Assembly (NCBI GenBank): GCA_008704415.1
Contig: VXIS01000276.1
Span: 5,001 to 64,781 of the forward strand
Length of the DNA: 59,781 nucleotides
From: Sphaerosporella brunnea
Taxonomy: Eukaryota > Ascomycota > Pezizomycetes > Pezizales > Pyronemataceae
Direction of reading: 5' to 3'
The translations under genes were made by a program, and so were the position numbers. Shown here piece after piece: positions 6,640 to 58,672 of the stretch (the stretch's first letter is position 1; every line of letters begins with the position of its first letter). Below the pieces are notes generated by a model that ran no database searches, was not told where the DNA came from, and worked only from the letters and a program-made list of their open reading frames with translations.

Positions 6640-8282
6640 CTACGACTTGTCCAACCGGACAGCAGCGTTGTTCTCAATGAATCCCAGGTCCACTTTGTGG
6701 CCCAAGAGCTCTCGGATATTGCTGACCTTGTACCGGATCATGGTCGGCCGCTCCAAACTCAGTCCCCATCCGTAGACTCGCAGGTCCTTTGGAAGTCCCA
6801 TACTCTCCAGCATCTCCGGCCGGAACATACCCGAGTTTCCGATCTCAACCCACTTACCCAATCCCTTGTGCTCGCCGAAGATCTCCATCGACGGCTCGGT
6901 GTAGGGGTTGTAGGCGGGCTTGAAACGCAAGTCATCAATACCCATCTTCTTGAAGAACTCCTTCATGAATCCGATGAGGCCACCAAGTGTCAGGCCGTAG
7001 TCCGCAATCACTCCTTCCACCTGGTGGAACTCCGCCAGATGCGTAGCGTCTACCGTCTCGTTTCGGAAAACGCGGTCGATCGAGAAGTATCTAGCGGGGC
7101 CAGGGTTCTGCGCAAGCTTGTGCAGCATGGCAGCCGAGATGGCGGTGGTGTGCGTCCGCAGTACAAGCCGCAGTGACTCCTCCGCCTTCCATGGATACCG
7201 GTATCCAGTCGAGCCGTACTTTCCGTTCTGGTGCACCTCACGCACGTTCTCCCAGTACTCGGTGTCGGTAGGCTTGTCGGCCATCGCGGGATCGGAGATG
7301 TAGAAGGTGTCCTGCAGGTCACGGGCAGGGTGCTGCTGCGGCACGAACAGCGTGTCGAAGTTCCAGAAGCCGGATTCTACGAAGCGGTCGGTCGACATCT
7401 CGGTGAAGCCCATCTCGAAGAAGATATTCCTGAACTCGTGGCGGACCTTGTTGAGCGGGTGAAGAGCTCCCGAAGGGGTTTGCGCGCCCAGCGCGGCAAA
7501 GTTGTAGGGCTTGAACTTCTTCTCTTTCCACGCGCCACTGCAACGATTCAGTACAGTCCTTGTAACGTGAGCTACAATCTTACTTTGCAATCATCTCCGC
7601 CGTCAGATCCGTCTCCTCCTTCACAATCTCCAGCGCAAACTTAGGACCCTTGTTAATACGGAAGCTGATGCGCTTCTGTATAGCCACCAGCTTGCGCTTC
7701 TTCAAATCTGCAAGGACCTTTGCGTCCGGGTACGTTTGCGTGTCGGCAATTGTCTGCAGTTGCTCGCGCGTCACATCCTGAATTGACTCCGCCTACTCAA
7801 CTCTGCCGTTAAGAAAAGTTCTGCATGAGCTTGGCGGTGATGCATGCACACACCTTCTTCACCAGCTTGTCACCCTCCTTCTTGATCCAACCCTCCTTGA
7901 AAGCCTTGCCCTGTCCGACCTTCGCGCTCACCGTACCAACAACACCCTGTTAAGCTCAGTAGGCGCTCTCGATCCCAGATAGTAGTCCTGCGGGACTCAC
8001 AGCTAACTCCGTAATCTTGAGTCCGTCCAGCGCCTTGCACACCGCCTCGTAGACCTTCGCTTCATGACTGCCATCCTTGACGATTCCAGCACCCTCTTCC
8101 GTCAGGACTGCGACTTCTTTATCGATGGTTTCGTAGGTGACCATTTCTCGGCTCAATAGCGAGTCGAGCGCTCCCTTGAGCAGCGTGGATTCCACATCGG
8201 GAAACGCATCGGTGGAGAGAAGCGGCAGCGCCGGGGCATCGTTCAGTGCGTGAAGCACTTGTGTAGCAAGATCCGGCGCCAT
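6640..8282 (-). CDS. FRS2: Phenylalanyl-tRNA synthetase alpha subunit, cytosolic
   Basis: Charges tRNA-Phe with phenylalanine in the cytosol as part of an alpha2-beta2 enzyme. Four exons on the minus strand (8001-8282, 7854-7946, 7584-7777, 6640-7537) give 488 residues in continuous phase, close to yeast FRS2. The N-terminal part carries the winged-helix DNA-binding-like repeats of the eukaryotic subunit ([17 protein letters not shown]). The C-terminal catalytic domain shows class II motif 2 ([20 protein letters not shown]) and motif 3 ([14 protein letters not shown]). Introns are 46-76 nt. The start MAPDLATQ follows an in-frame upstream ATG 19 codons earlier, which I consider less likely because that extension is not family-like. 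Confidence 0.94.
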
Positions 8283-9875: not shown

Positions 9876-10816
9876 AAACCCAAATTCATGTTTTCCGACA
9901 TATTGAAGGAATCTAATTTGCGTGCCATTTAGGAGCTGCCTTCCCTCTCTCCCTCTCTCCCTCCCTCCTATCCATCCACACAATCGCCAGCAAAGGATCT
10001 ATCTGCTCGTTCACCTCACAACCATTTAACGCACCACCACCGCCACGGCATTAAGAACGTCCCCTCATCAAAGGCAGCAAATCAACTGGTAAGTCTCGAT
10101 TGGTTCTCCCCTTTCTCTCCTACCCAGCAGACTGGTTCTAGCTTCGCCAAATCCAGCGAACAAGGTCGCCAGCCTTTCTCCCGAAACCTCAACACTCCCT
10201 ACTCCCCACTTCCCACCCAATCCCCACTCCCCACTCTCAGTTCCTCTTTCCATCTCTCTGAGTTACCATTCCTTTAGTCCCCTTCCCTGAACTACATACC
10301 TTTGCGAAAAGAAACTCATCATCGAATAAAACGGCTTCGGCGCCATTCCTCGACCTCCACCACTGTTTTTTTTCCTACCTTTTTGGCTGACAATCGCGTG
10401 TCATGGGAGGCAGAATGTGTTCCAATCAATGGCGCAAACCCAAGAGTGGCAGGCTTGAGGTGAGTCCCCGCTGTTCTGTGTTGTGTCGTTTCCTCCCCGC
10501 TGGCGCAGTGATACCACCGATGGTCTTCATCAAAGTCCCCGGTTGTTAAAGTCTTCTGAGGGTTTCAGCCTATTTTAATTGCTTAGCTTTTGACCTTAGA
10601 GTTGCTTACGGCACTGTGCTAACACGTGTATAATGTTTTCAGACCTCCTGCTGCCCGAGTGCCTTCCACGATCGTTTCCGAAGCTCAAGAAGTGAAGCTA
10701 CATCGAGTTCCTCAAATACCCACGCTCGAAAAGTACAGCAGTACCCGAGCTATCTATGTGGTACGCCTTCCTTCATTCTTACCTTTGAGAATCCTATATA
10801 CATGTGGCTCGACAAT

Positions 10817-10876
10817 ATGACGATCAAAGTCATTTCGAAACCTCATTAGGTTGGTGAATGCAACGAGTATCCCTGA
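10817..10876 (+). ncRNA. Box C/D snoRNA-like element 1
   Basis: The C box is ATGACGA (one change from RTGATGA) and the D box CTGA at 10873-10876. CAAT before the C box can pair with ATTG just after the D box. It lies in the intron 10761-10955. The core is 60 nt, without the internal hairpin of later members. The guide segment before the D box is AACGAGTATCC; I did not match it to an rRNA site. Confidence 0.5.
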
Positions 10877-11025
10877 TCTATTGGCCAATACGGATCACCG
10901 ATTTCCTTCACACTTCTTGGGATAATTAGCTGACAATTTGACGGTGTTTACACAGAGAATTCGCTCGGCAGGCCCGGAGAAAAAGGTGGGACTTTGCTGT
11001 TTTGAAATATGCAAGATTTGGTCCA

Positions 11026-11078
11026 ATGATGATCGTGAAGATATACCGAGAAAAATGATGCACAAACATGTGATCTGA
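11026..11078 (+). ncRNA. Box C/D snoRNA-like element 2 (most canonical)
   Basis: Perfect C box ATGATGA at 11026-11032, C'-like ATGATG at 11055-11060 and D box CTGA at 11075-11078. Flanking GTCC (11021-11024) and GGAC (11079-11082) form a terminal stem directly next to the boxes, as expected for a C/D snoRNA. The guide before the D box is CACAAACATGTGAT. It lies in the intron that follows exon 10956-10985. Confidence 0.65.
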
Positions 11079-11281
11079 GGACATGGACATTGACAGTTAT
11101 AAAACTTCCCCCGTTTCGGTCACCCTATTTTCCAGACTGTTTGAAATCCCTAGCTAATTTTGTTTGTGATATAGGCTTGTTCTTAACGGTATACAGACGA
11201 TCTGTATTAAATGCTTTATAATCTCAGTGAGACTCCCGCTCTCTCTGTACACGTTCTGAGTTTTCTTCTTCCATCCACGCT

Positions 11282-11346
11282 ATGATGATTGATTGTTCGT
11301 CTTTTTGAGCACGTTGTGCTACTTATGAGGAAGACTTAACTCCTGA
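11282..11346 (+). ncRNA. Box C/D snoRNA-like element 3
   Basis: C box ATGATGA at 11282-11288 and D box CTGA at 11343-11346. Internal GCAC-GTT-GTGC can form a short hairpin. The guide ahead of the D box is AAGACTTAACTC. No clear terminal stem is seen. Confidence 0.55.
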
Positions 11347-11516
11347 TATTCGGGCCACTCAATTTCCTCCGTCCTGCGAACGTCCCTCTCTTTGATATCA
11401 TGAGCTAACGATGGCGGCTTGGAATATGTGTATATACAGATAACTAATTCGGACCGAAAGATCATAATCTCGGTGAGACTCCCTCTATACCCTTCCGCCC
11501 ACCCAAGGCTAGCTAT

Positions 11517-11587
11517 ATAATGGTTTCTTCACTTTTCCAAGTATAACAAGCAAAATTGTTGTGCTGTGCGGAAATAAGTCGATCTGA
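11517..11587 (+). ncRNA. Box C/D snoRNA-like element 4 (degenerate C box)
   Basis: The C box has decayed to ATAATGG; the D box CTGA is at 11584-11587. Flanking GGCTAG and CTGGCC can still pair with one G-U pair. It lies between micro-exons 11440-11472 and 11670-11698. Possibly a non-functional member. Confidence 0.4.
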
Positions 11588-11759
11588 TACTCTTCTGGCC
11601 ACCGAATTTCCGTTGCCCGTTCTATTTTGAGATCTTAAGCTAACCAAAGTCGTGTGGAGTATAATACAGACAATCCGGACTGAAGCATCATGACCCCGGT
11701 GAGGCTCTCCATCCAAATGAATTTACTCTTCCACCGATACCCAGCTAGCTGCAGACTAT

Positions 11760-11831
11760 ATGATGATTCGAAATCTCTTTGAGCACAACATCTCTCCATG
11801 TTGTGCGATGATAAAAAAGCTCTCCATCTGA
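11760..11831 (+). ncRNA. Box C/D snoRNA-like element 5
   Basis: C box ATGATGA 11760-11766, internal hairpin GCACAACAT..ATGTTGTGC, C'-like GATGATA, D box CTGA 11828-11831. CAGA before the C box can pair with TCTG after the D box. The guide before the D box is AGCTCTCCAT. The element closely resembles element 7 on its 5' side. Confidence 0.6.
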
Positions 11832-11977
11832 TCTCTGGCCGTTCAATTCACTTTTCCCCTATCCTCTTTCGTCTTTGAGGCCATGAGCTAACCAAGATCG
11901 GACAGACAATTCGGCCTGACGGCCATACATGATCTCGGTGAGGCCCTCCTCCCCGTCCTCCTCCTCAATGCCAGGCA

Positions 11978-12041
11978 ATGATGATTTCTCTTTCTTTGAG
12001 CACCCCAATGTTGTGCGATGATAAAAAAGCTCTCCATCTGA
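11978..12041 (+). ncRNA. Box C/D snoRNA-like element 6
   Basis: C box ATGATGA 11978-11984, internal stem GCAC..GTGC, C'-like GATGATA, D box CTGA 12038-12041. Five-base terminal stem GCCAG/CTGGC. The guide before the D box, AGCTCTCCAT, is shared with elements 5, 11 and 12, while the guide after the C box differs from element 5. Confidence 0.62.
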
Positions 12042-12208
12042 TCGCTGGCCGTTCAATTCACTTTTCCCCTATCCTCTTTCGTCTTTGAGGCCATGAGATA
12101 ACCAAGATCGGACAGACAATTCGGCCTGACGGCCAGACATGACCTCGGTGAGGCCCTCCATCCAAATGAATTTACTCTTCCACCGATACCCAGCTAGCTG
12201 CAGACTAT

Positions 12209-12280
12209 ATGATGATTCGAAATCTCTTTGAGCACAACAACTTTCCATGTTGTGTGATGATAAAAAATCTCTCAATCTGA
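12209..12280 (+). ncRNA. Box C/D snoRNA-like element 7
   Basis: Near copy of element 5 with C box ATGATGA 12209-12215 and D box CTGA 12277-12280. The guide before the D box has changed to AATCTCTCAAT, and one hairpin base differs. Terminal CAGA/TCTG pairing is retained. Confidence 0.6.
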
Positions 12281-12422
12281 TCTCTGGCCGCTCAATTCAC
12301 TTTTCCCTTATCCTCTTTCGTCTTTGAGGCCACCATGAGCTAACCAAGATCGGACAGACAATTCGGCCTGACGGCCAGACATGATCTCGGTGAGGCCCTC
12401 TTCCCCCCCTTCCTCCGTTGCA

Positions 12423-12516
12423 ATGATGATTTTCTGTTTTTTTTTGAGCACCCCAATGTTGGGCTACATATATGTGCGTCATATATTTGCATATGAAAAA
12501 AGAACTCTGGATCTGA
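12423..12516 (+). ncRNA. Box C/D snoRNA-like element 8 (long internal arm)
   Basis: C box ATGATGA 12423-12429 and D box CTGA 12513-12516, 94 nt in all. The middle part is expanded by an AT-rich self-complementary stretch (ACATATATGTG, ATATATTTGCATATG). The guide before the D box is GAACTCTGGAT. Element 13 is its close copy. Confidence 0.55.
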
Positions 12517-12774
12517 TCGCTTGGTCGTCCTGCACTGCTTGTTTTGCAATATCAAGTAAAATTTCGAGTCAAGCTAACGGACCTATTGGCGTAGATATGG
12601 AGCTTTACAGACGTCTCGGTAAGACCCCTTTTCTCCTTTACTTTGCACGGTTTTATTTGAAGTTTGCTAATGGCTTGGATGCAGTGGTCCCACCTGATAT
12701 CATTCACGAGAGATCACCCGATCAGGATCTCGGTGAGGCCTCCTTCCCCTTCCTCTTTCCACCTATGCCATGCG

Positions 12775-12847
12775 ATGATGATTGTGTGTTTCGTTTTTTG
12801 AGTAAGCACAACTATGTTGTGCTGCATGAAAACGAATCTGGATCTGA
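12775..12847 (+). ncRNA. Box C/D snoRNA-like element 9
   Basis: C box ATGATGA 12775-12781, hairpin GCACAACTATGTTGTGC, D box CTGA 12844-12847. Terminal stem GCCA/TGGC. The guide before the D box is CGAATCTGGAT. The 5' neighbour is the 48-nt exon 12685-12732. Confidence 0.6.
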
Positions 12848-13001
12848 TCCCTTGGCCGTCTTCCATCGTTGTTTTGCAAATTTCGAGTCGAGCTAACGGA
12901 TCTACCGGTGTAGATATGGAGCATTATTGGCAACATGTATGCACAGCAATATCACGGTGAGACCATCAACCCTTTTTCTGCTTTATCAAGACCTCGTCCA
13001 T

Positions 13002-13095
13002 GTGATGATATACTGGCAAGCCGTCGAACTGAGCGCGCACAACGTTAATAGCGTTAGCTAGCGTTCGTTCACTATGGACAACAATATCTATCTAA
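13002..13095 (+). ncRNA. Box C/D snoRNA-like element 10
   Basis: C box GTGATGA 13002-13008 and an internal perfect CTGA (D') at 13029-13032. The terminal D position reads CTAA, so the terminal D box is degenerate. A GCGCACAACGTTAATAGC segment follows D'. Related to elements 15 and 17. Confidence 0.45.
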
Positions 13096-13262
13096 CTATT
13101 CTGCCAATATACCCTATCTGGTCTCTCTCCCCTCGGTTTTAAGGATGGTTTGCTAACGGGCACGATGGTTTCTAGATGGCACTCTACATATCAATCACAA
13201 GGGATCAACCGATCAGGATCTTGGTGAGGCACCTACCTTCCTCCCCCCCTTCCTCCGTTGCA

Positions 13263-13328
13263 ATGATGATTTTCTCGATATTTTGAGCACCCCAATGTTG
13301 TGCGATGATAAAAAAGCTCTCCATCTGA
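13263..13328 (+). ncRNA. Box C/D snoRNA-like element 11
   Basis: C box ATGATGA 13263-13269, internal GCAC..GTGC stem, C'-like GATGATA, D box CTGA 13325-13328. Its 3' half equals element 6 and its 5' half equals element 8, so it looks like a recombinant copy. Confidence 0.58.
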
Positions 13329-13475
13329 TCGCTGGCCGTTCAATTCACTTTTCCCCTATCCTCTTTCGTCTTTGAGGCCATGAGCTAACCAAGATCGGAC
13401 AGACAATTCGGCCTGACGGCTATACATGATCTCGGTGAGGCCCTCCTCCCCCTTCCTCCTCCTCAATGCCAGGCA

Positions 13476-13539
13476 ATGATGATTTCTCTTTCTTTGAGCA
13501 CCCCAATGTTGTGCGTTGATAAAAAAGCTCTCCATCTGA
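13476..13539 (+). ncRNA. Box C/D snoRNA-like element 12
   Basis: Almost identical to element 6: C box ATGATGA 13476-13482, D box CTGA 13536-13539, terminal stem GCCAG/CTGGC. The C' region reads GTTGATA instead of GATGATA. Confidence 0.6.
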
Positions 13540-13677
13540 TCGCTGGCCGTTCAATTCACTTTTCCCCTATCCTCTTTCGTCTTTGAGGCCATGAGCTAAC
13601 CAAGATCGGACAGACAATTCGGCCTGACGGCCATACATGATCTCGGTGAGGCCCTCCTCCCCCCTTCCTCCGTTGCA

Positions 13678-13769
13678 ATGATGATTTCTGGATTTTTTGA
13701 GCACCCCAATGTTGGGCTACATATATGTGCGTCATATATATGCATATGAAAAAAGAACTCTGGATCTGA
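13678..13769 (+). ncRNA. Box C/D snoRNA-like element 13
   Basis: Close copy of element 8: C box ATGATGA 13678-13684, D box CTGA 13766-13769, same long AT-rich middle arm and guide GAACTCTGGAT. Confidence 0.55.
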
Positions 13770-14004
13770 GCATTTGCCGTCTTCCGCAATTTCAAGTCGA
13801 ATTTCCTGTCAAGCTAACGGTCCAAAGGCCATGTATGTATGGGACTTTATAGGCGCCTCAGTAAGACTCCTTTACTTTGCACGGTTTTATTTGAAGTTTT
13901 GCTAATGGCCTAGATGCAATTTTCCCCACCTGGTATCGATCAGAGAAATCGTCCAATAAGGATCTCGGTGAGCCATCTACCTCCCTACTCCTCGAAGCTA
14001 TGCG

Positions 14005-14079
14005 ATGATGATTTCGTCTTCCTTCTCTTGAGCATGCACAGCTATGTTGTGCTGTATGAAAACAGAATCATGGATCTGA
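14005..14079 (+). ncRNA. Box C/D snoRNA-like element 14
   Basis: C box ATGATGA 14005-14011 and D box CTGA 14076-14079, related to elements 9 and 16. Its terminal stem is GCTA/TAGC where those have GCCA/TGGC, a paired C-to-T and G-to-A change. The guide ends ATCATGGAT. Confidence 0.62.
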
Positions 14080-14250
14080 TCCCTTAGCCATCTGTCGCCG
14101 TTTTGCAATTTCAAGTAGAATTCCGAGTCAAGCTAACGGGCCTATAGGCGTGGATATCATCCTTTCGAACCACAGTGGAAGGCCTCAGTAAGGCCATCTT
14201 TTCAATCCCTTTTTCTGCTCCACCAAGACCTCGGCCATGCATATGGCTAT

Positions 14251-14344
14251 ACGATGATACCCGAATAGCCAAACTGAGCGCGCACAACGTTAATAGCATT
14301 AGCTAGCTAGCGTTCATGTGCTATGAGCAAAAATATCCGTCTGA
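14251..14344 (+). ncRNA. Box C/D snoRNA-like element 15
   Basis: C-like box ACGATGA (one mismatch), D' CTGA 14273-14276, D box CTGA 14341-14344. TCGGC upstream and GCCGA downstream can form a five-base outer stem. Related to element 10, with a different guide before D'. Confidence 0.48.
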
Positions 14345-14496
14345 TTGTTTCGCCGATATACCCCATCTCGTCTCTCTGCTCTCCGTTTTATGGGTGGTTT
14401 GCTAATGGGTACGATGATGTCTAGATGGTACATATGATCACCCGAGTTTCTGTGAGGCCTCCTCTCCCCTAAGCTTCCTCTTTCCAATGCCATGCG

Positions 14497-14571
14497 ATGA
14501 TGATTTTGTCTTTCTGCTTTTGAGCATGCACAAATATGTTGTGCTGTATGAAAAAAGAATACTGGATCTGA
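14497..14571 (+). ncRNA. Box C/D snoRNA-like element 16
   Basis: C box ATGATGA 14497-14503, hairpin with ATGTTGTGC, D box CTGA 14568-14571, terminal stem GCCA/TGGC. The guide before the D box is AGAATACTGGAT. Confidence 0.6.
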
Positions 14572-14695
14572 TCCCTTGGCCATCTGTCGCCGTTTTGCAA
14601 TTTCGACTAGAATTTCGAGTCAAGCAAGCTAACGGAACCTATAGGCGTACCTGACATTTCTGCTTTATCGAAGCCGTACATACGAGCTCGGTCAT

Positions 14696-14766
14696 ATGAT
14701 GATGTCTAGGTAGGTCGATGAATTGAGCGTCGTTCACGTGTGCTATGCGCAACAATATCCATCTGA
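14696..14766 (+). ncRNA. Box C/D snoRNA-like element 17 (last of the array)
   Basis: C box ATGATGA 14696-14702 and D box CTGA 14763-14766. CTCGG upstream and CCGAG downstream form a five-base outer stem. The guide before the D box is CAATATCCAT, close to element 15. No donor-exon-acceptor pattern is clear beyond it, so the array probably ends here. Confidence 0.52.
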
Positions 14767-14951
14767 TTATTTGGCCGAGATATTAATGTGCGTTTTTGCT
14801 TTCGGGTTTATATAATTTATGGGTGGGTTGCTATTGGGTATGCTTCGCTGGCGATGATGTCTACCGTATTAGGTAGATGCAATTTTCTCAGCTGCGACTG
14901 TCCGCCGCATTATTGATGTTATCTCATGCGTCAACTGCGGCTGAGTTGGTA

Positions 14952-16080
14952 CTAATCACAATATATCACTCGTGTCATCTCTTCTCCGCATGTGCAGCAG
15001 AGAAAATGGCTCCCAATCTCACTCTTATCCTCCTCCTCCAGATCCTCCTTAACCCTTCTCCGTTTCCCAGCCTCTTCTTCCCCCTCTTCTAGCAGCTCGG
15101 CCGCTCTCTTTTTCGACCCCTTCAAGCTCTCGCCCACATCCTCCACAACCTCCAGCATCGGTTTCCCCCACACCCTCTGCCTCCCAAACTCCGTCTCCTC
15201 AGCCATAAACCTATAAATCTCGGCAACGCCCCTAAAAACCTCCTCGCCAAAGCCCGTCTCCTTATGCGTATCGCTAATATTCTCTATTTCCTCCACCCAC
15301 CGGAAGGCCTTCCCGGGGATATCTTTAACAACCTTTTGCAAGAACGAGACAATATCGCCACCAAACGGCGGCGCAAACGCTTCCAGCTCTTCTTTCAACA
15401 CATCCGCCATACCGTTGCTTGCCGCAGTCGTAAACGCCATCAGGGACAGTGCCTGTAGCCCCTTCGACACCGATGCAAAACACATTTTGAGCGTAGAAGT
15501 CTGTCCAACCTCCGGTCCAACGCTGCGGATGTTGAGGATCCTTTCCACCTCAGGATCTAGTTTTGCCGCGCCGGACACTGAGATTCTGGGTTGTCGCCAC
15601 CCGCGCCCGCTCACCAGCTGTGCCGGCGGACTCCCGAAGATGGCGCCATCAAGAAACCGCGGCGTTGTGCCGGAGCCCATCGATAGCGGCGTGCTAAATA
15701 GACTCGGTCACTGTCCGCGAGGTGGCGTTCAGGTCGATGTATAACGGCGGGTTGGGGCCGCGGTTGGCATAGGTGAAGGCGTAGGCGACTCGCTTTGCGG
15801 TTGCAAGGGCGGAGGAAGGAGGGACGATGCTGAGGATTAGGTCTGCGGTGTTCACGAGGTCGACGTCCGAAGAGAGGATTTCTATGTTGCTGGAGACGGC
15901 TCGTTGCCGGGTTGTTTCGCTGATCGAAAGGGCGTTAGTTTAGAGATTTGTTTGGAGGTGAGGGAGATATTGCTTACCTTCGCCCACTGAGCACAGTTAC
16001 TACACGGATCGAGTGCGCTTGTAGTAGCCGTGCTATGCCCACACTCATCTCATCCAGTGAGAGTATCCCGACTACGCAGC
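14952..16080 (-). pseudogene. 6-phosphogluconate dehydrogenase-like oxidoreductase, frame-broken
   Basis: The first visible exon (about 16080-15978) encodes a Rossmann start, VGILSLDEMSVGIARLLQAH. A 58-nt intron joins it to an exon from 15919 containing SSDVDLVNTADLILSIVPPS and PPLYIDLNATS, typical of NAD(P)-binding 6PGDH-like proteins. The C-terminal part (MGSGTTPRFLDGAIFGSPPA onwards, ending at 14952) carries the DUF1932-type helical domain and an extra acidic/basic tail. Near 15698 the two halves are in different frames: the first half runs into TAG after TVTESI, and reading on correctly would need one base fewer. No intron fits there. The initiator exon was not found. It is either a recent pseudogene or a base-call error in a live gene. 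Confidence 0.65.
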
Positions 16081-38012: not shown

Positions 38013-39120
38013 TACAGTAGTTCTCTACATGAGGGTTCGTCTTGACTCTGGGGACCGGGAAGGGGAATTGCGGGGGGAAGATGTACTCGTACGTGCAAGT
38101 TACTCAGCTGCGCGGAACCCTCCCAGGTAAATACAAGATGCCTGTCGGCGGAACAGTGCATGTAGAGTACACATAGGTGGTGTCGACGGTTATACTCAGA
38201 GGAGCTATCTTAAGAGCATGTGAGGTACTGGCATTGATTTAAATTTGGAAGCAAAAAGCTCGTCTGAAAGAGACATCTGTGGGAAATAGTGCACAATGTT
38301 AGTGATGGACCGAGTGATATCCAGTGAGTTCGCGAACACCCCCATCTCCACCACTTGTTGGTGAGCCACCTCTTCTTCTCGTGCTTCAGCCATCCACACA
38401 CCACAGGTTTTCTCGGTATTCGCGATACATACAATCCTTTTCGATGCGGGGTTTTTTGACTTTGCACTGCACTGCAATAAAGGAACTCCAAGAAGCCTGC
38501 CTATAAGGCAGAGTTCGTGCTGCGAAGGATGAGAGGCATACTGGAGAAGTTGGTAGTCTTCAAAAAGCGAGTGGTGGATTGAGACCAATGTTTTCTGGTA
38601 AGTTTATTTCTAACAAAATATAAATCATGCCAGCGGCTAATGTCGACAAGGCGCTGCATCGATTCTGGAATCGTTTGTCGTGTTCAAGAGATGTTTTCTC
38701 GTAAGTCCAGTCCTAACAAAACACAACTCATGGCTAATGGCGATAAGGACCGGGACATATGTAATTAACAAGAAGCTTCCCGCTTCTATCCGTATGCTAT
38801 TCCCCTCCAACATTCGGTCATAACTAAGTCTTTTTTCAGATTGGGTCCATTCGAGAGTGTTCAACTATTTCTGCAGCAGGGGCCTTGGGTCCTGAGTGCC
38901 GATGTTAAGAACAGCAGGATGAAGAAGTTCTCCGCGGCGCCCTGCCGTATCGTGCGCGCTGCGCCACACATAAAGTACTCTGTTGGAGTTCCGAAAGGAG
39001 GCGCCTTATAATCATAAGTGGGCGTATCGGGGTGAGGGCAGAGGAGAAGTTAAAAAGCGAATGCCAAAATTGAGACTTCGATTGAAGTAAGTCTTGGTTT
39101 TTGGATAAAGATGAGTCGTC
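38013..39120. other. Degenerate region with repeated short modules
   Basis: Two related 50-60 bp segments occur at about 38590-38645 and 38696-38750 (TTTTCTSGTAAGT, CTAACAAAA, GCTAATG, GATAAGG in the same order). Each resembles an exon end followed by an intron with a CTAAC branch site. A phrase like GGAGAAGTTGG..TTCAAAAAGCGAG recurs near 38551, 39044 and 40750. No continuous coding frame was found. This may be the wreck of a repeated gene. Confidence 0.3.
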
Positions 39121-39280
39121 TGAGGAAGATGAGAAAGTCGACACGCCTCATCAAATCAACAAAAAGCGCCTTTCTGAGGAAGATGAGAAAGTCGACACGC
39201 CTCATCGAATCAACAAAAAGCGCCTTCTGAGGAAGATGAGAAAGTCGACACGCCTCGTCGAATCAACAAAAAGCGCCTTT
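39121..39280 (+). repeat. Minisatellite of about 54 bp, three copies, partly coding
   Basis: Copies begin at 39121, 39175 and 39228. Copies 1 and 2 translate in one frame as an 18-residue unit, SEEDEKVDTPHQINKKRL. Copy 2 lacks one T, which shifts the third copy out of frame. Substitutions are few, so amplification is recent. Confidence 0.8.
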
Positions 39281-39497
39281 CTCAGGCCCAGGTTGCTCAC
39301 AAAACGCATATATTTGCTTCGCTGCCGCCTGTCTTCGAAGTTACGGCCACTGTTATAAAAAAAAAGGGGGGAGGGGGTTGCAACATGCTACCGCTTGCAG
39401 TACGTCTCGCGGTGGCTGGCTGACACCAGGCATAGCAAAGCGTTTTTTTTTTTTTTTTTTTCAAACACAAAACGCTCCGCCAGAGAAGAAAAAAACG

Positions 39498-43100: not shown

Positions 43101-44128
43101 AGAAGGGAAGGATGACTTTGATTCGAGTTGATGTGCTGCCCACGCGGTGCTGCGACTCTTCACGGCGGTTGACGAGATGCTGGTTTTCTAAATCGGTGGT
43201 CATTGTGGCGCCAGCAGGAGCAGTAACTGTCGTGACGATGACTCTGATAGTGGTGATGATAGTGGTTCAGGACTTCAAATTGTTTCTCTTGGTAGCAGCA
43301 GCCACAGCAGCAGTATCGTTGTTTCTCTCGCACTGTGGAGGCTGGAGCATTCAGTCAGCAGCAGATGACAGTGTTCCGAAGGTCAGCAAAAGCAAAACAG
43401 GTGCCGTGATGTTATGCGGTCACAAAATAGAGTACCACCATATATACACACAAACCGGTATTTGCAGGGGTTTTTTTTTTTCAGCTGCACATGTTTTTGA
43501 ATTCTCAATTCCCACAGCCAATCGTCATCAGCTTCAAAATGCAGCTTTCCGTCCCACATGCCACAACAACCACAGCGCATGAAAATAAGTATGAATGAAA
43601 AAAAACCGACGTTTCCAATTGCAGTGGGAAGATGATGTCAGGTGAGACTCTGTTTTTCTCCTCGCTTCACTGTACTCTAACCCTAGCTTTTGGACCTTAC
43701 TTTGTGGAAAAATAGGAAGCTATGCTTGTAACTTTGAGATTGAGAGTCGCATACAAAAGGACTGGCGTGTTCAACATCAGTGTGCGGGTGAGAGGGTAGT
43801 GTGGACGAGGCCGGTTCATAGGCCTGCAAAATCTCAGGAACAGGCGTTCATCATGTCCAGTTGAGGTTTAAAAATCCGCGTCAAAACTTCATTTGGGAGA
43901 TGATAGTCAAATGACAGCATATTCCAGGCACGACCAAGTTGAATTAGCAGACCCGAAATCCCAGAATCTCACAACAAATACTCCTTCCTCATAAGCCCCC
44001 CTTCACAAGAATACCTCCTAGATGTGTCCCATGTTGAGATAGTACACAGCCAAGGCCCAGAAACAAGCACGAACGAAAAACAAAAACCAAAAGACGGAGA
44101 AGAAATCGACATCATTTCAAGCATGACT
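40170..44128. other. Gene-poor, partly degenerate region
   Basis: I found no gene I can support. Fragments with intron-like borders occur near 40791 (GTAAGTTCA after GGGCCGG; acceptor TTTGCAG at 40839) and near 42074 (GTAAGTTCACTTC). A frame at 41280-41564 (LDLKTLVSNTSYVKDLAKNV-like) matches nothing I know. A-rich runs lie at 42677-42700. The segment from 42780 to 43620 has low-complexity frames on both strands. Confidence 0.3.
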
Positions 44129-44208
44129 CATTTCCAACAGGACCCATTCCTAACAGGACTCATTTCCAACAGGACTCATTTCCAACAGGACCCATTCCTA
44201 ACAGGACT
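44129..44208. repeat. Five tandem copies of a 16-mer
   Basis: The unit is CATTYCYAACAGGACY, with two alternating variants (TTTCCAAC and TTCCTAAC), 70 bp beyond the 3' end of the Argonaute gene. Confidence 0.9.
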
Positions 44209-44280
44209 CATTCCCAAGAACAAGAAGAAAGCACAAAATGAAAACCGCAAGAAAGAGACGCACGAGAAATAACCTACAAC

Positions 44281-47200: not shown

Positions 47201-47740
47201 ACCGCAGACAGCTGCATGCTCGACATAGCCTTCACTATGTCATCTTCCACTTTCTTCTGCTGATTCTGGGCGTTGGTGTTGAAAGCGACGCCCCTGAGAT
47301 AGACAAACCGACAAGTCAGTTGAGCTCCGACACAAATTGAGGGAAGCGAGCTCACGAATAAGGTCATACCTCTTGTAGATTCCGGTGTCAGGGGGAGCGC
47401 CGCCACCCCTTCCACCGCCTCCCGAGTAGCCACCGCGACCGCCGCCGCGATCGCCACGGAACCCAGAGAAACTTCCACCACGGGATCCATCGTAACCGCC
47501 CCTGCCGCCGCCGCCGCCACCGCCTCCTCCCTGGTAGCCACCGCCTCCTCCCTGGTAGCCACCGCCTCCTCCCTGGTAGCCACCGCCTCCTCCTTGGTAG
47601 CCACCGCCTCCTCCTTGGTAGCCACCGCCTCCTCCTTGGTAGCCACCACGGCCTCCTCCGCCACGGCCTCCACCGCGGTCACCGCGTCCGCGATCACCGC
47701 CTCCGCCCCCGCGTCCACGCCCACCACCACGGGAGCTCAT
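44281..47740 (-). CDS. Argonaute (small-RNA-guided silencing protein)
   Basis: Binds small RNAs and directs post-transcriptional silencing; the fungal counterpart is the quelling protein QDE-2. Seven exons (47370-47740, 46511-47293, 46192-46457, 45901-46142, 45194-45829, 45015-45149, 44281-44967) give 1039 residues in continuous phase. Residues 1-120 are a Gly/Arg-rich region with six 7-residue repeats (YQGGGGG) and RGG motifs. The N domain, PAZ (around FHFNAIKRLKTHFRHIRVEF to GQYYTGKLPDEQT) and PIWI (VSARILQAPPISYGNG onwards) follow. Catalytic residues appear intact: Asp in VGCDVTHP, Glu in LQKTKQE, Asp in YRDGVSEGQF. The fourth position is Asp in PAYYADLV where human AGO2 has His, giving a DEDD set. 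Intron 4 contains poly-C and poly-A tracts on the coding strand. Probably slicer-competent. Confidence 0.95.
47517..47642 (-). repeat. Six 21-bp tandem repeats coding YQGGGGG in Argonaute
   Basis: Six units of 21 bp, differing only by a C/T, inside exon 1 of the Argonaute gene. The unit length is a multiple of three, so copy-number changes keep the frame. Copies may vary between strains. Confidence 0.92.
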
Positions 47741-58261: not shown

Positions 58262-58672
58262 GTGAAGGGATTCAACCGTCAAAAAAGAAGAGAGGGGGAG
58301 AGAGGAGGGGAGAAGAGGGGGGGAGGAGAGGGACGGGAGGGGAGAGGAAAGAGGAAAGAGGAACGAAAGGGAAGAAAAGGAGGGAGGAGAAAAGAGGGAA
58401 GAGAGAAGAAGGGTAGTGAAAGGGAAGAAAAAAAGAAAAAAAGAAAATGAGAAGAAAAAGGAAGAGGAGAAAAAAGGGGAGGAGAAAAAAAGAGAAAGAA
58501 AGAGAAAAAAGGGGGGAAGGGGGGGAGGGAAGGAAAGGGAAAAGAAGAGGAGAAAAGGGGAAGAGAGAAAGAGGAACACGAGAACAAGGGGGAGAGGGAA
58601 GGAAAAGGAAGAGAGAGGAAGAGGAAAAAGAAGAAAGAGGAGAAAAGAAGGGAAAGGGGGGGGGAAGTGAGA
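58262..58672. repeat. 410-bp polypurine tract
   Basis: From about 58279 to 58670 nearly every base on the plus strand is A or G, with only a handful of C or T. It yields long open frames on both strands that are artefacts of composition. Such tracts can form triplex DNA and bias replication or transcription. Confidence 0.95.

Follow-up and report, generated by a model that had tools for sequence, protein, structure and literature searches.

A candidate array of locally amplified box C/D snoRNAs in a predicted non-coding gene of Sphaerosporella brunnea

Tandem snoRNA arrays, in which paralogous units lie head to tail in the repeated introns of a single non-coding RNA, are best known from mammalian imprinted regions. 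In the cup fungus Sphaerosporella brunnea, an apparently non-coding gene of about 4 kb holds box C/D candidates that share this layout: most are neighbouring paralogues in the same orientation, and a single predicted non-coding RNA has them in its repeated introns. Are these units snoRNAs, how has the array grown and what could its members guide? We analyzed the locus within a window of 59,781 nucleotides, to which all positions refer.

Motifs and splice signals of the array

We find 17 box C/D snoRNA candidates on the + strand between position 10,761 and about 14,890, 16 of which are singly nested in predicted introns. The locus has the PheRS-alpha and DUF1932 genes as neighbours. Splice donors, C and D boxes, hairpins, branch sites and CAG/TAG acceptors had been described in the sequence-only reading, and they are indeed in register along the array, the branch sites being of the form GCTAAY. 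The C box RUGAUGA is exact in 14 of the 17 units and the D box CTGA in 16. The repeated anatomy proposed for all units applies to most of them; the hairpin common to the others is missing from u1 and u2, the C box of u4 is degenerate and the D box of u11 reads CTAA.

To judge the role of chance, composites of donor, C box, D box and branch site were counted in 10,700-14,900 and in the remaining 55.6 kb of the window. The + strand of the array region contains 11 composites and its - strand none, and none is present on either strand of the remaining 55.6 kb. In 200 dinucleotide shuffles the mean was 0.005 composites and the maximum 1. The exact ATGATGA occurs 13 times within the array, as against a mean of 1.12 and at most 6 in the shuffles. 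With 11 composites found against 0.005 expected, we reject a chance origin.

For the host transcript, 20 introns are predicted between 10,089 and 14,644, all of the type GT...AG. Two lie upstream of the array, 16 carry one C/D unit apiece and two short ones carry none; u19 is located 3′ of these and has poor borders. The first intron (10,089-10,413, + strand, GTAAGT...GGCAG) is predicted from splice motifs only, and the exon before it ends at 10,088. Measured in 16 units, the distance from the end of the D box to the branch site spans 43-74 nt, with 13 of them at 51-58 nt, and that to the 3′ splice site is 73-99 nt in all 16. Thus, as predicted from the sequence, 16 of the 17 units have splice sites and a branch site around them at constrained spacing, and their host has no long reading frame. 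The exons predicted between the array introns measure 8-54 nt. Those of 8-12 nt may be skipped, which counts against the host model.

That the host is non-coding had also been proposed, and the longest stop-free stretch in the spliced exons is 79 aa. A 174-aa open frame at 12,372-12,896 has no Pfam match, and the paralogous block has 8 stops in each frame. A coding explanation is rejected on these three grounds.

Within the units, a D′-like TTGAG or CTGAG follows 3′ of the C box in most cases (judged by eye, without a null model). By the same kind of inspection, a degenerate C′ box (GATGAT/ATGAAA-like) is found 3′ of the hairpin in most units; the internal boxes of u1, u2 and u4 are poorer. 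No such hairpin is present in u1 or u2, and those of u6, u11, u12, u13 and u19 are weak. Against mononucleotide shuffles, the segment from D′ to the D guide folds with z <= -3 in 7 and z <= -2 in 9 of the 17 units. The flanking-stem score averages 9.9 in the units and 6.7 for random window pairs, and it reaches at least 10 in 8 of 17 units as compared with 14% of random pairs. No flanking stem is seen in u11, whereas u19 has one of 8 bp, and the stem GCTA/TAGC of u16 is a compensated change relative to GCCA/TGGC of u10 and u18. RNAalifold finds no consensus base pairs in the alignment of the 17 units, and therefore a covariance model built from them holds sequence only.

Duplication and divergence of the units

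About 15 copies with repeat units of about 210-260 nt are packed into ~4 kb. The sequence-only reading had counted some 17 paralogues; about 15 stand, and u1 (10,817-10,876, intron 10,761-10,955, ATGACGA...CTGA) and u2 (11,026-11,078, intron 10,986-11,174, ATGATGA...CTGA) are by eye other, apparently unrelated C/D units. Two further units precede the subfamilies, u3 (11,282-11,346, intron 11,227-11,439) and u4 (11,517-11,587, intron 11,473-11,669), the latter with the C box ATAATGG.

Thirteen of the ~15 paralogues fall into four subfamilies, all on the + strand like the units before them. Subfamily A comprises u5 (11,760-11,831, intron 11,699-11,905), u6 (11,978-12,041, intron 11,938-12,115, branch GATAAC), u7 (12,209-12,280, intron 12,148-12,357), u12 (13,263-13,328, intron 13,224-13,402) and u13 (13,476-13,539, intron 13,435-13,613). 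To subfamily B belong u8 (12,423-12,516, intron 12,390-12,610) and u14 (13,678-13,769, intron 13,646-13,852), and to subfamily C u10 (12,775-12,847, intron 12,733-12,946), u16 (14,005-14,079, intron 13,968-14,175) and u18 (14,497-14,571, intron 14,452-14,644). Subfamily D consists of u11 (13,002-13,095, intron 12,957-13,175), u17 (14,251-14,344, intron 14,188-14,424, C box ACGATGA) and the last unit u19 (14,696-14,766), whose intron borders are uncertain, with a degenerate branch and an acceptor at 14,872-14,891. The two short introns without a snoRNA, 12,619-12,684 (66 nt) and 13,861-13,913 (53 nt), are counterparts of each other. The fifteen units look like one family, enlarged through tandem duplications that copied now a single unit, now a block.

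Over 12 non-independent paralogue pairs the C and D boxes are changed at 2 of 132 positions and the introns at 112 of 1041. For five independent pairs the figures are 2/55 and 38/465 (p = 0.29), so that box conservation is not significant. The D guides drift between paralogues at the intron rate; in subfamily A, the D guide is identical in four of the five copies. The D′ guides change about twice as fast as the intron, with weak statistics (28/140 over the 12 dependent pairs; 11/64 against 38/465, p = 0.035, over the five independent pairs). With regard to positive selection on the D′ guides, these numbers are suggestive only. The proposal that few founders were amplified and that their guide segments diverged finds support in the sequence on both counts.

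Guide segments and known snoRNA families

We tested 34 guide segments against yeast-type 18S, 5.8S and about the first 650 nt of the LSU, as well as the fungus's own U6 and U2. No convincing partner was found among these RNAs. By contrast, both own U14 candidates (including L033) pair with 18S over 11 bp. The best of the 34 guides on the sense strand of the own U2 (four loci including L027, L028 and L030) reaches 8 nt with one G-U. Weak D′ matches occur in the LSU part: for u3 and for u13 they comprise 9 nt including a single G-U, and for u4 they comprise 14 nt, some four of them G-U. A tentative lead is that u1 may have an LSU-like guide. In the window outside 10,001-14,950 no box-anchored complement is longer than 11 nt, whereas a length of 12 nt is attained by 3% of shuffled guides; the neighbourhood thus appears to hold no target.

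No Rfam snoRNA family matches the array at the cut-off. A relaxed search gave sub-threshold C/D matches only, the best being those to sR11 (u2, 22.5 bits, cut-off 39) and to sR42 (20.4 bits, cut-off 38). Via Rfam we see no homology to the fungal clusters I-V, and the guide tests on 18S, 5.8S, the first ~650 nt of the LSU, U6 and U2 are likewise negative.

Origin and possible role of the array

The motif anatomy, the spacing, the duplication and the guide divergence are established at the level of the sequence, and no second copy of the array was found in the 50.6 Mb assembly. We consider it quite probable that the locus is a genuine C/D snoRNA array, amplified in place within a non-coding host, and that it parallels rat Bsr and SNORD115/116 in a fungus. 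The host would be a spliced transcript without coding potential, probably made by polymerase II, with one box C/D snoRNA per intron. The introns would be spliced out and debranched, and exonucleases would then trim them to a particle delimited by the C/D kink-turn, which the C/D snoRNP proteins could bind and which might direct methylation. A founder unit, made up of an exon, a donor, a C/D RNA whose D′ and C′ are separated by a hairpin, a branch and an acceptor, may have given rise to about 15 paralogues through tandem duplication. Selection would have maintained the boxes and the splice spacing but let the guides drift, and most units might therefore now be orphan or differently targeted guides.

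Like rat Bsr RNA and the eutherian SNORD115/116 and SNORD113/114, the array consists of paralogous C/D snoRNA candidates in local tandem repeats; subfamilies and partial tandem duplications are described for SNORD115/116 in a 2024 review (PMC11028025). Unlike these, it has a fungal host, compact units, short exons and no Rfam snoRNA family at the cut-off. The same review calls large tandem C/D snoRNA repeats recent eutherian-specific innovations, plus rat Bsr, and suggests that others might exist in understudied genomes. With the fungal polycistronic clusters I-V (snR72-78, snR57-55-61, snR41-70-51 and others) the array shares the layout of intronic C/D units in a UHG-like, here predicted, non-coding host with small exons (PMC2780460, PMC3596301). 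Whereas those clusters carry different, conserved rRNA guides, the S. brunnea units are mostly paralogues with no target in the RNAs tested. In the Neurospora crassa study, the UHG-like hosts have short reading frames of 159-267 bp, and snoRNA genes are mostly singletons, which the authors connect with RIP (PMC2780460). The same study reports many variants per snoRNA in plants, a likeness to our array; the plant genes, however, are presented as isoforms or variants of snoRNAs already identified, whereas in S. brunnea the guides have diverged inside a single array.

It is conceivable, though doubtful, that a SNORD115/116-like array has evolved independently in a fungus, with a dedicated non-coding host and diversifying orphan C/D snoRNAs. 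Its D′ guides would change faster than the neutral intron; this would be expected of guides that track targets other than rRNA (mRNAs, other non-coding RNAs, mobile-element transcripts), or if variety itself is favoured. With similar reservation we regard the copies as possible ordinary rRNA methylation guides for LSU sites beyond the ~650 nt covered, amplification raising the dose or adding neighbouring sites. In N. crassa 64 of 71 predicted C/D methylations are on rRNA, 43 of these on 26S (PMC2780460), and the constant D guide of subfamily A and the weak LSU matches point the same way. This reading is at odds with the lack of convincing matches for 34 guides in 18S, 5.8S and the first ~650 nt of the LSU, whereas both U14 candidates pair with 18S. 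It also sits poorly with the intron-like drift of the D guides, which the D′ guides may even exceed.

Somewhat less probable is a decaying array of one or two functional units, the others being snoRNA pseudogenes that recent duplication and gene conversion have maintained. An identity of 96-98% between some copies speaks for a short time since duplication; the damaged boxes of u4 and u11, the poor borders of u19, the two empty introns, the intron-like guide drift and the non-significant box conservation over independent pairs would fit as well. The boxes, however, persist in units whose flanks barely align, most are exact, and the spacing from D box to branch is narrow in 13 of 16 units. That the units are a satellite or coding repeat with motif look-alikes is very improbable: one chance motif would be copied along several near-identical tandem repeats, but in the divergent u1, u2, u3, u4, u11, u17 and u19 the C and D boxes and, for the most part, the splice motifs still follow one another in the same order, a long coding frame is absent and no second copy of the array was found in the assembly.

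If the locus is a C/D snoRNA array, as we favour, this compact fungal case would offer an independent system for studying the roles of drift and function in the origin of such arrays, the activity of orphan C/D snoRNAs and the splicing of exons of 8-54 nt. Upstream of the array, the predicted host intron 10,460-10,642 (+ strand) may carry one additional, divergent C/D candidate. It is weak and has no guide match among the RNAs tested; GTGATAC lies near 10,508 and CTGA at 10,556, and GCTG/CAGC flanks are seen by eye.

Units, predicted introns and putative host transcript

The sequence-only reading had described about 17 intron-nested C/D-like elements in a non-coding host, and we confirm this observation. 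Direct reading of positions 10,001-15,600 together with motif scans gives 17 C-to-D units in the array (10,761 to about 14,890, + strand). The scans place the C boxes at 10817, 11026, 11282, 11517, 11760, 11978, 12209 and 12423 (u1-u8), at 12775, 13002, 13263, 13476 and 13678 (u10-u14) and at 14005, 14251, 14497 and 14696 (u16-u19). Fourteen units have an exact RUGAUGA, the exceptions being u1 (ATGACGA), u17 (ACGATGA) and u4 (ATAATGG), and 16 have an exact CTGA as D box, u11 having CTAA. Predicted introns of 178-237 nt enclose 16 of the 17 units, the intron borders of u19 being doubtful. Two extra predicted introns, 66 and 53 nt long, are without a snoRNA, and the array introns are separated by predicted exons of 8-54 nt.

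In mammals, intronic C/D snoRNAs preferentially lie at a constant distance ahead of the branch point. Here 13 of 16 units have 51-58 nt between the end of the D box and the branch point (43-74 nt over all 16), and the 3′ splice site follows the end of the D box after 73-99 nt. The donor precedes the C box by 32-63 nt; for Neurospora crassa the 5′ splice site distance is given as mostly 41-60 nt (PMC2780460). We find 11 composites of the form GTRAG - C box - CTGA - GCTAAY on the + strand of the array, with no instance on its other strand or on either strand of the remaining 55.6 kb of the window; the mean over 200 shuffles was 0.005. Since the array copies are related, the 11 composites are not independent, but units that scarcely align also keep the order C then D.

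The predicted exons, joined from 10,000 to 14,950 (1,078 nt), have a longest open stretch of 79 aa, in agreement with a non-coding host. Such a short frame is no objection to a host here because the C/D cluster hosts of N. crassa also have reading frames of 159-267 bp (PMC2780460). An open frame of 174 aa (12372-12896) matches no Pfam family, and its paralogous block contains 8 stops in each frame. Directly upstream of the array, the predicted intron 10460-10642 holds a weak C/D candidate (GTGATAC ... CTGA, with GCTG/CAGC flanks), perhaps an 18th unit.

Copy relationships and folding

By eye we grouped the units into subfamilies A (u5, u6, u7, u12, u13), B (u8, u14), C (u10, u16, u18) and D (u11, u17, u19). 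Of the proposal that few founders gave rise to about 17 paralogues, tandem copying is supported for these subfamilies and for the distant members u3 and u4; u1 and u2 are apparently unrelated. Over aligned positions, gaps excluded, u5 and u7 are 96% identical, u6 and u13 98% and u12 and u13 98%. Block u8-u11 is 84% identical to u14-u17 (118 gap columns) and block u16-u17 is 85% identical to u18-u19 (163 gap columns). In the assembly (50.57 Mb, 640 contigs) searches showed nothing similar outside the array: one unit has at least 8 matches, those listed all being on C197, the contig from which the window takes positions 5001-64781. An exact hairpin pattern has at least 2, the two listed both at the array, and the whole array lists only itself, these counts being lower bounds.

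The flanking stem scores 9.9 on average versus 6.7 for random pairs, and reaches 10 or more in 8 of 17 units versus 14% of random pairs. One change is compensated: GCTA/TAGC in u16 versus GCCA/TGGC in u10 and u18. For the stretch from D′ to the D guide, the folding z score is -3 or lower in seven of the 17 units and -2 or lower in nine; the hairpin is weak in u6, u11, u12, u13 and u19, and in the folding of the 17 units u1 and u2 have none. A covariance model had been proposed as a check. RNAalifold finds no consensus pair across all 17 units, which counts against one common fold.

Divergence and targets of the guides

The postulated divergence of the guide segments is borne out. Over 12 paralogue pairs, which are not independent, the D guide changed at 19/179 positions (10.6%) and the D′ guide at 28/140 (20%), compared with 48/456 (10.5%) in the 5′ and 64/585 (10.9%) in the 3′ part of the intron, 17/265 in the hairpin and 1/84, 1/48, 2/60 and 7/80 in the C, D, D′ and C′ boxes. 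In five independent pairs the intron changed at 38/465 positions, against 11/64 in the D′ guide (p = 0.035), 8/74 in the D guide (p = 0.50) and 2/55 in the boxes (p = 0.29). The D guide thus shows no more constraint than intron sequence does. Change may be faster in the D′ guide. As judged from these comparisons the boxes are conserved between copies, significantly so solely in the dependent pair set.

Our searches of the assembly found no intact rDNA; they gave partial, degenerate pieces on contig C262 and, on C630, a single fragment of LSU. Locus L012 (G000:C262:17500-27400) comprises two 5.8S-like stretches with SSU and LSU pieces of partial rDNA, and L032 (G000:C630) is the separate short LSU fragment. 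We scored the 34 guides (17 D, 17 D′; at most one G-U) against yeast-type 18S, 5.8S and LSU 5′ end from record L017 and against the fungus's own LSU pieces, U6 and U2; LSU was covered for its first ~650 nt and one 160-nt piece. L017 is a contig catalogued as the actinomycete Planomonospora parontospora; it contains 18S and 5.8S of a eukaryote and, on the opposite strand, 5S. A yeast-type sequence seems to have contaminated this bacterial record.

This matching to rRNA and snRNA, suggested by the sequence-only reading, gave no convincing match in yeast-type 18S, 5.8S, the first ~650 nt of LSU, the own LSU pieces or own U6 and U2. In 18S the best guide scores 10.2 (9 nt with one G-U), equalled by 7% of shuffled guides; in U2, read in sense at four loci, the top guide reaches 8 nt, one G-U included. 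Re-reading the upstream candidate and u1-u3 at other positions yielded no guide match in the RNAs tested. The fungus's own U14 served as a control: its two best candidates, L033 and L034, both under the RF00016 cut-off, each form 11 Watson-Crick pairs with 18S and score 14.0, so the test is able to detect a real guide. With free G-U pairing, runs reach 14 nt, the length seen for the D′ guide of u4 on the LSU piece with about four G-U pairs; these were not counted. The U2 family (RF00004) has 19 places above cut-off in the assembly, nine at 145-158 bits; so many U2-like copies are unusual for a fungus.

Interpretation and genomic setting

The evidence agrees with a set of box C/D snoRNAs encoded in the introns of a non-coding host and multiplied locally. 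We favour a largely orphan set of copies because the guides show no conservation from copy to copy and the RNAs tested contain no convincing match. Less favoured are LSU-directed guides. N. crassa guides point mostly to LSU (PMC2780460), and in the LSU 5′ part the D′ guides of u3 and u13 were flagged, each 9 nt with one G-U, reached by 5% and none of 60 shuffles, respectively; yet the u6 D′ guide, the same 17 nt as that of u13, was not flagged. Decaying copies are likewise less favoured than the orphan set. The interpretation given in the sequence-only reading is supported in part, any function and targets of the array being putative.

It is established that fungi have non-coding hosts with C/D snoRNAs in their introns (PMC2780460, PMC3596301). 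The clusters described there are conserved sets of different guides, whereas the S. brunnea array consists mostly of paralogues; in N. crassa snoRNA genes are mostly singletons (PMC2780460). A review describes large C/D tandem repeats as specific to eutherians and adds the rat Bsr case (PMC11028025); related work includes SnoBIRD (PMC12309372). Among the open-licence literature matches listed (titles, abstract openings) there was no fungal tandem paralogous C/D array, which does not prove absence.

The array is flanked by the gene for phenylalanyl-tRNA synthetase alpha (6640-7590, - strand) and by a gene with a DUF1932 domain (14952-15707, - strand). Among the 120 listed of 7,278 synthetase relatives, the first species-named is from Wilcoxina mikolae (89%), followed by other Pezizomycetes, in keeping with a pezizomycete as the probable source; a metagenomic protein is nearer (98%). 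From relatives of both flanking genes (89% and 54% identical), the neighbourhood may be kept in a related metagenomic fungus. Elsewhere in the window we note near-perfect tandem repeats at 39119-39286 (54 bp), 44112-44217 (48/16 bp) and 47516-47647 (21 bp), and near the contig end a long low-complexity purine-rich run (58286-58662) made up of short tandem repeats that overlap.
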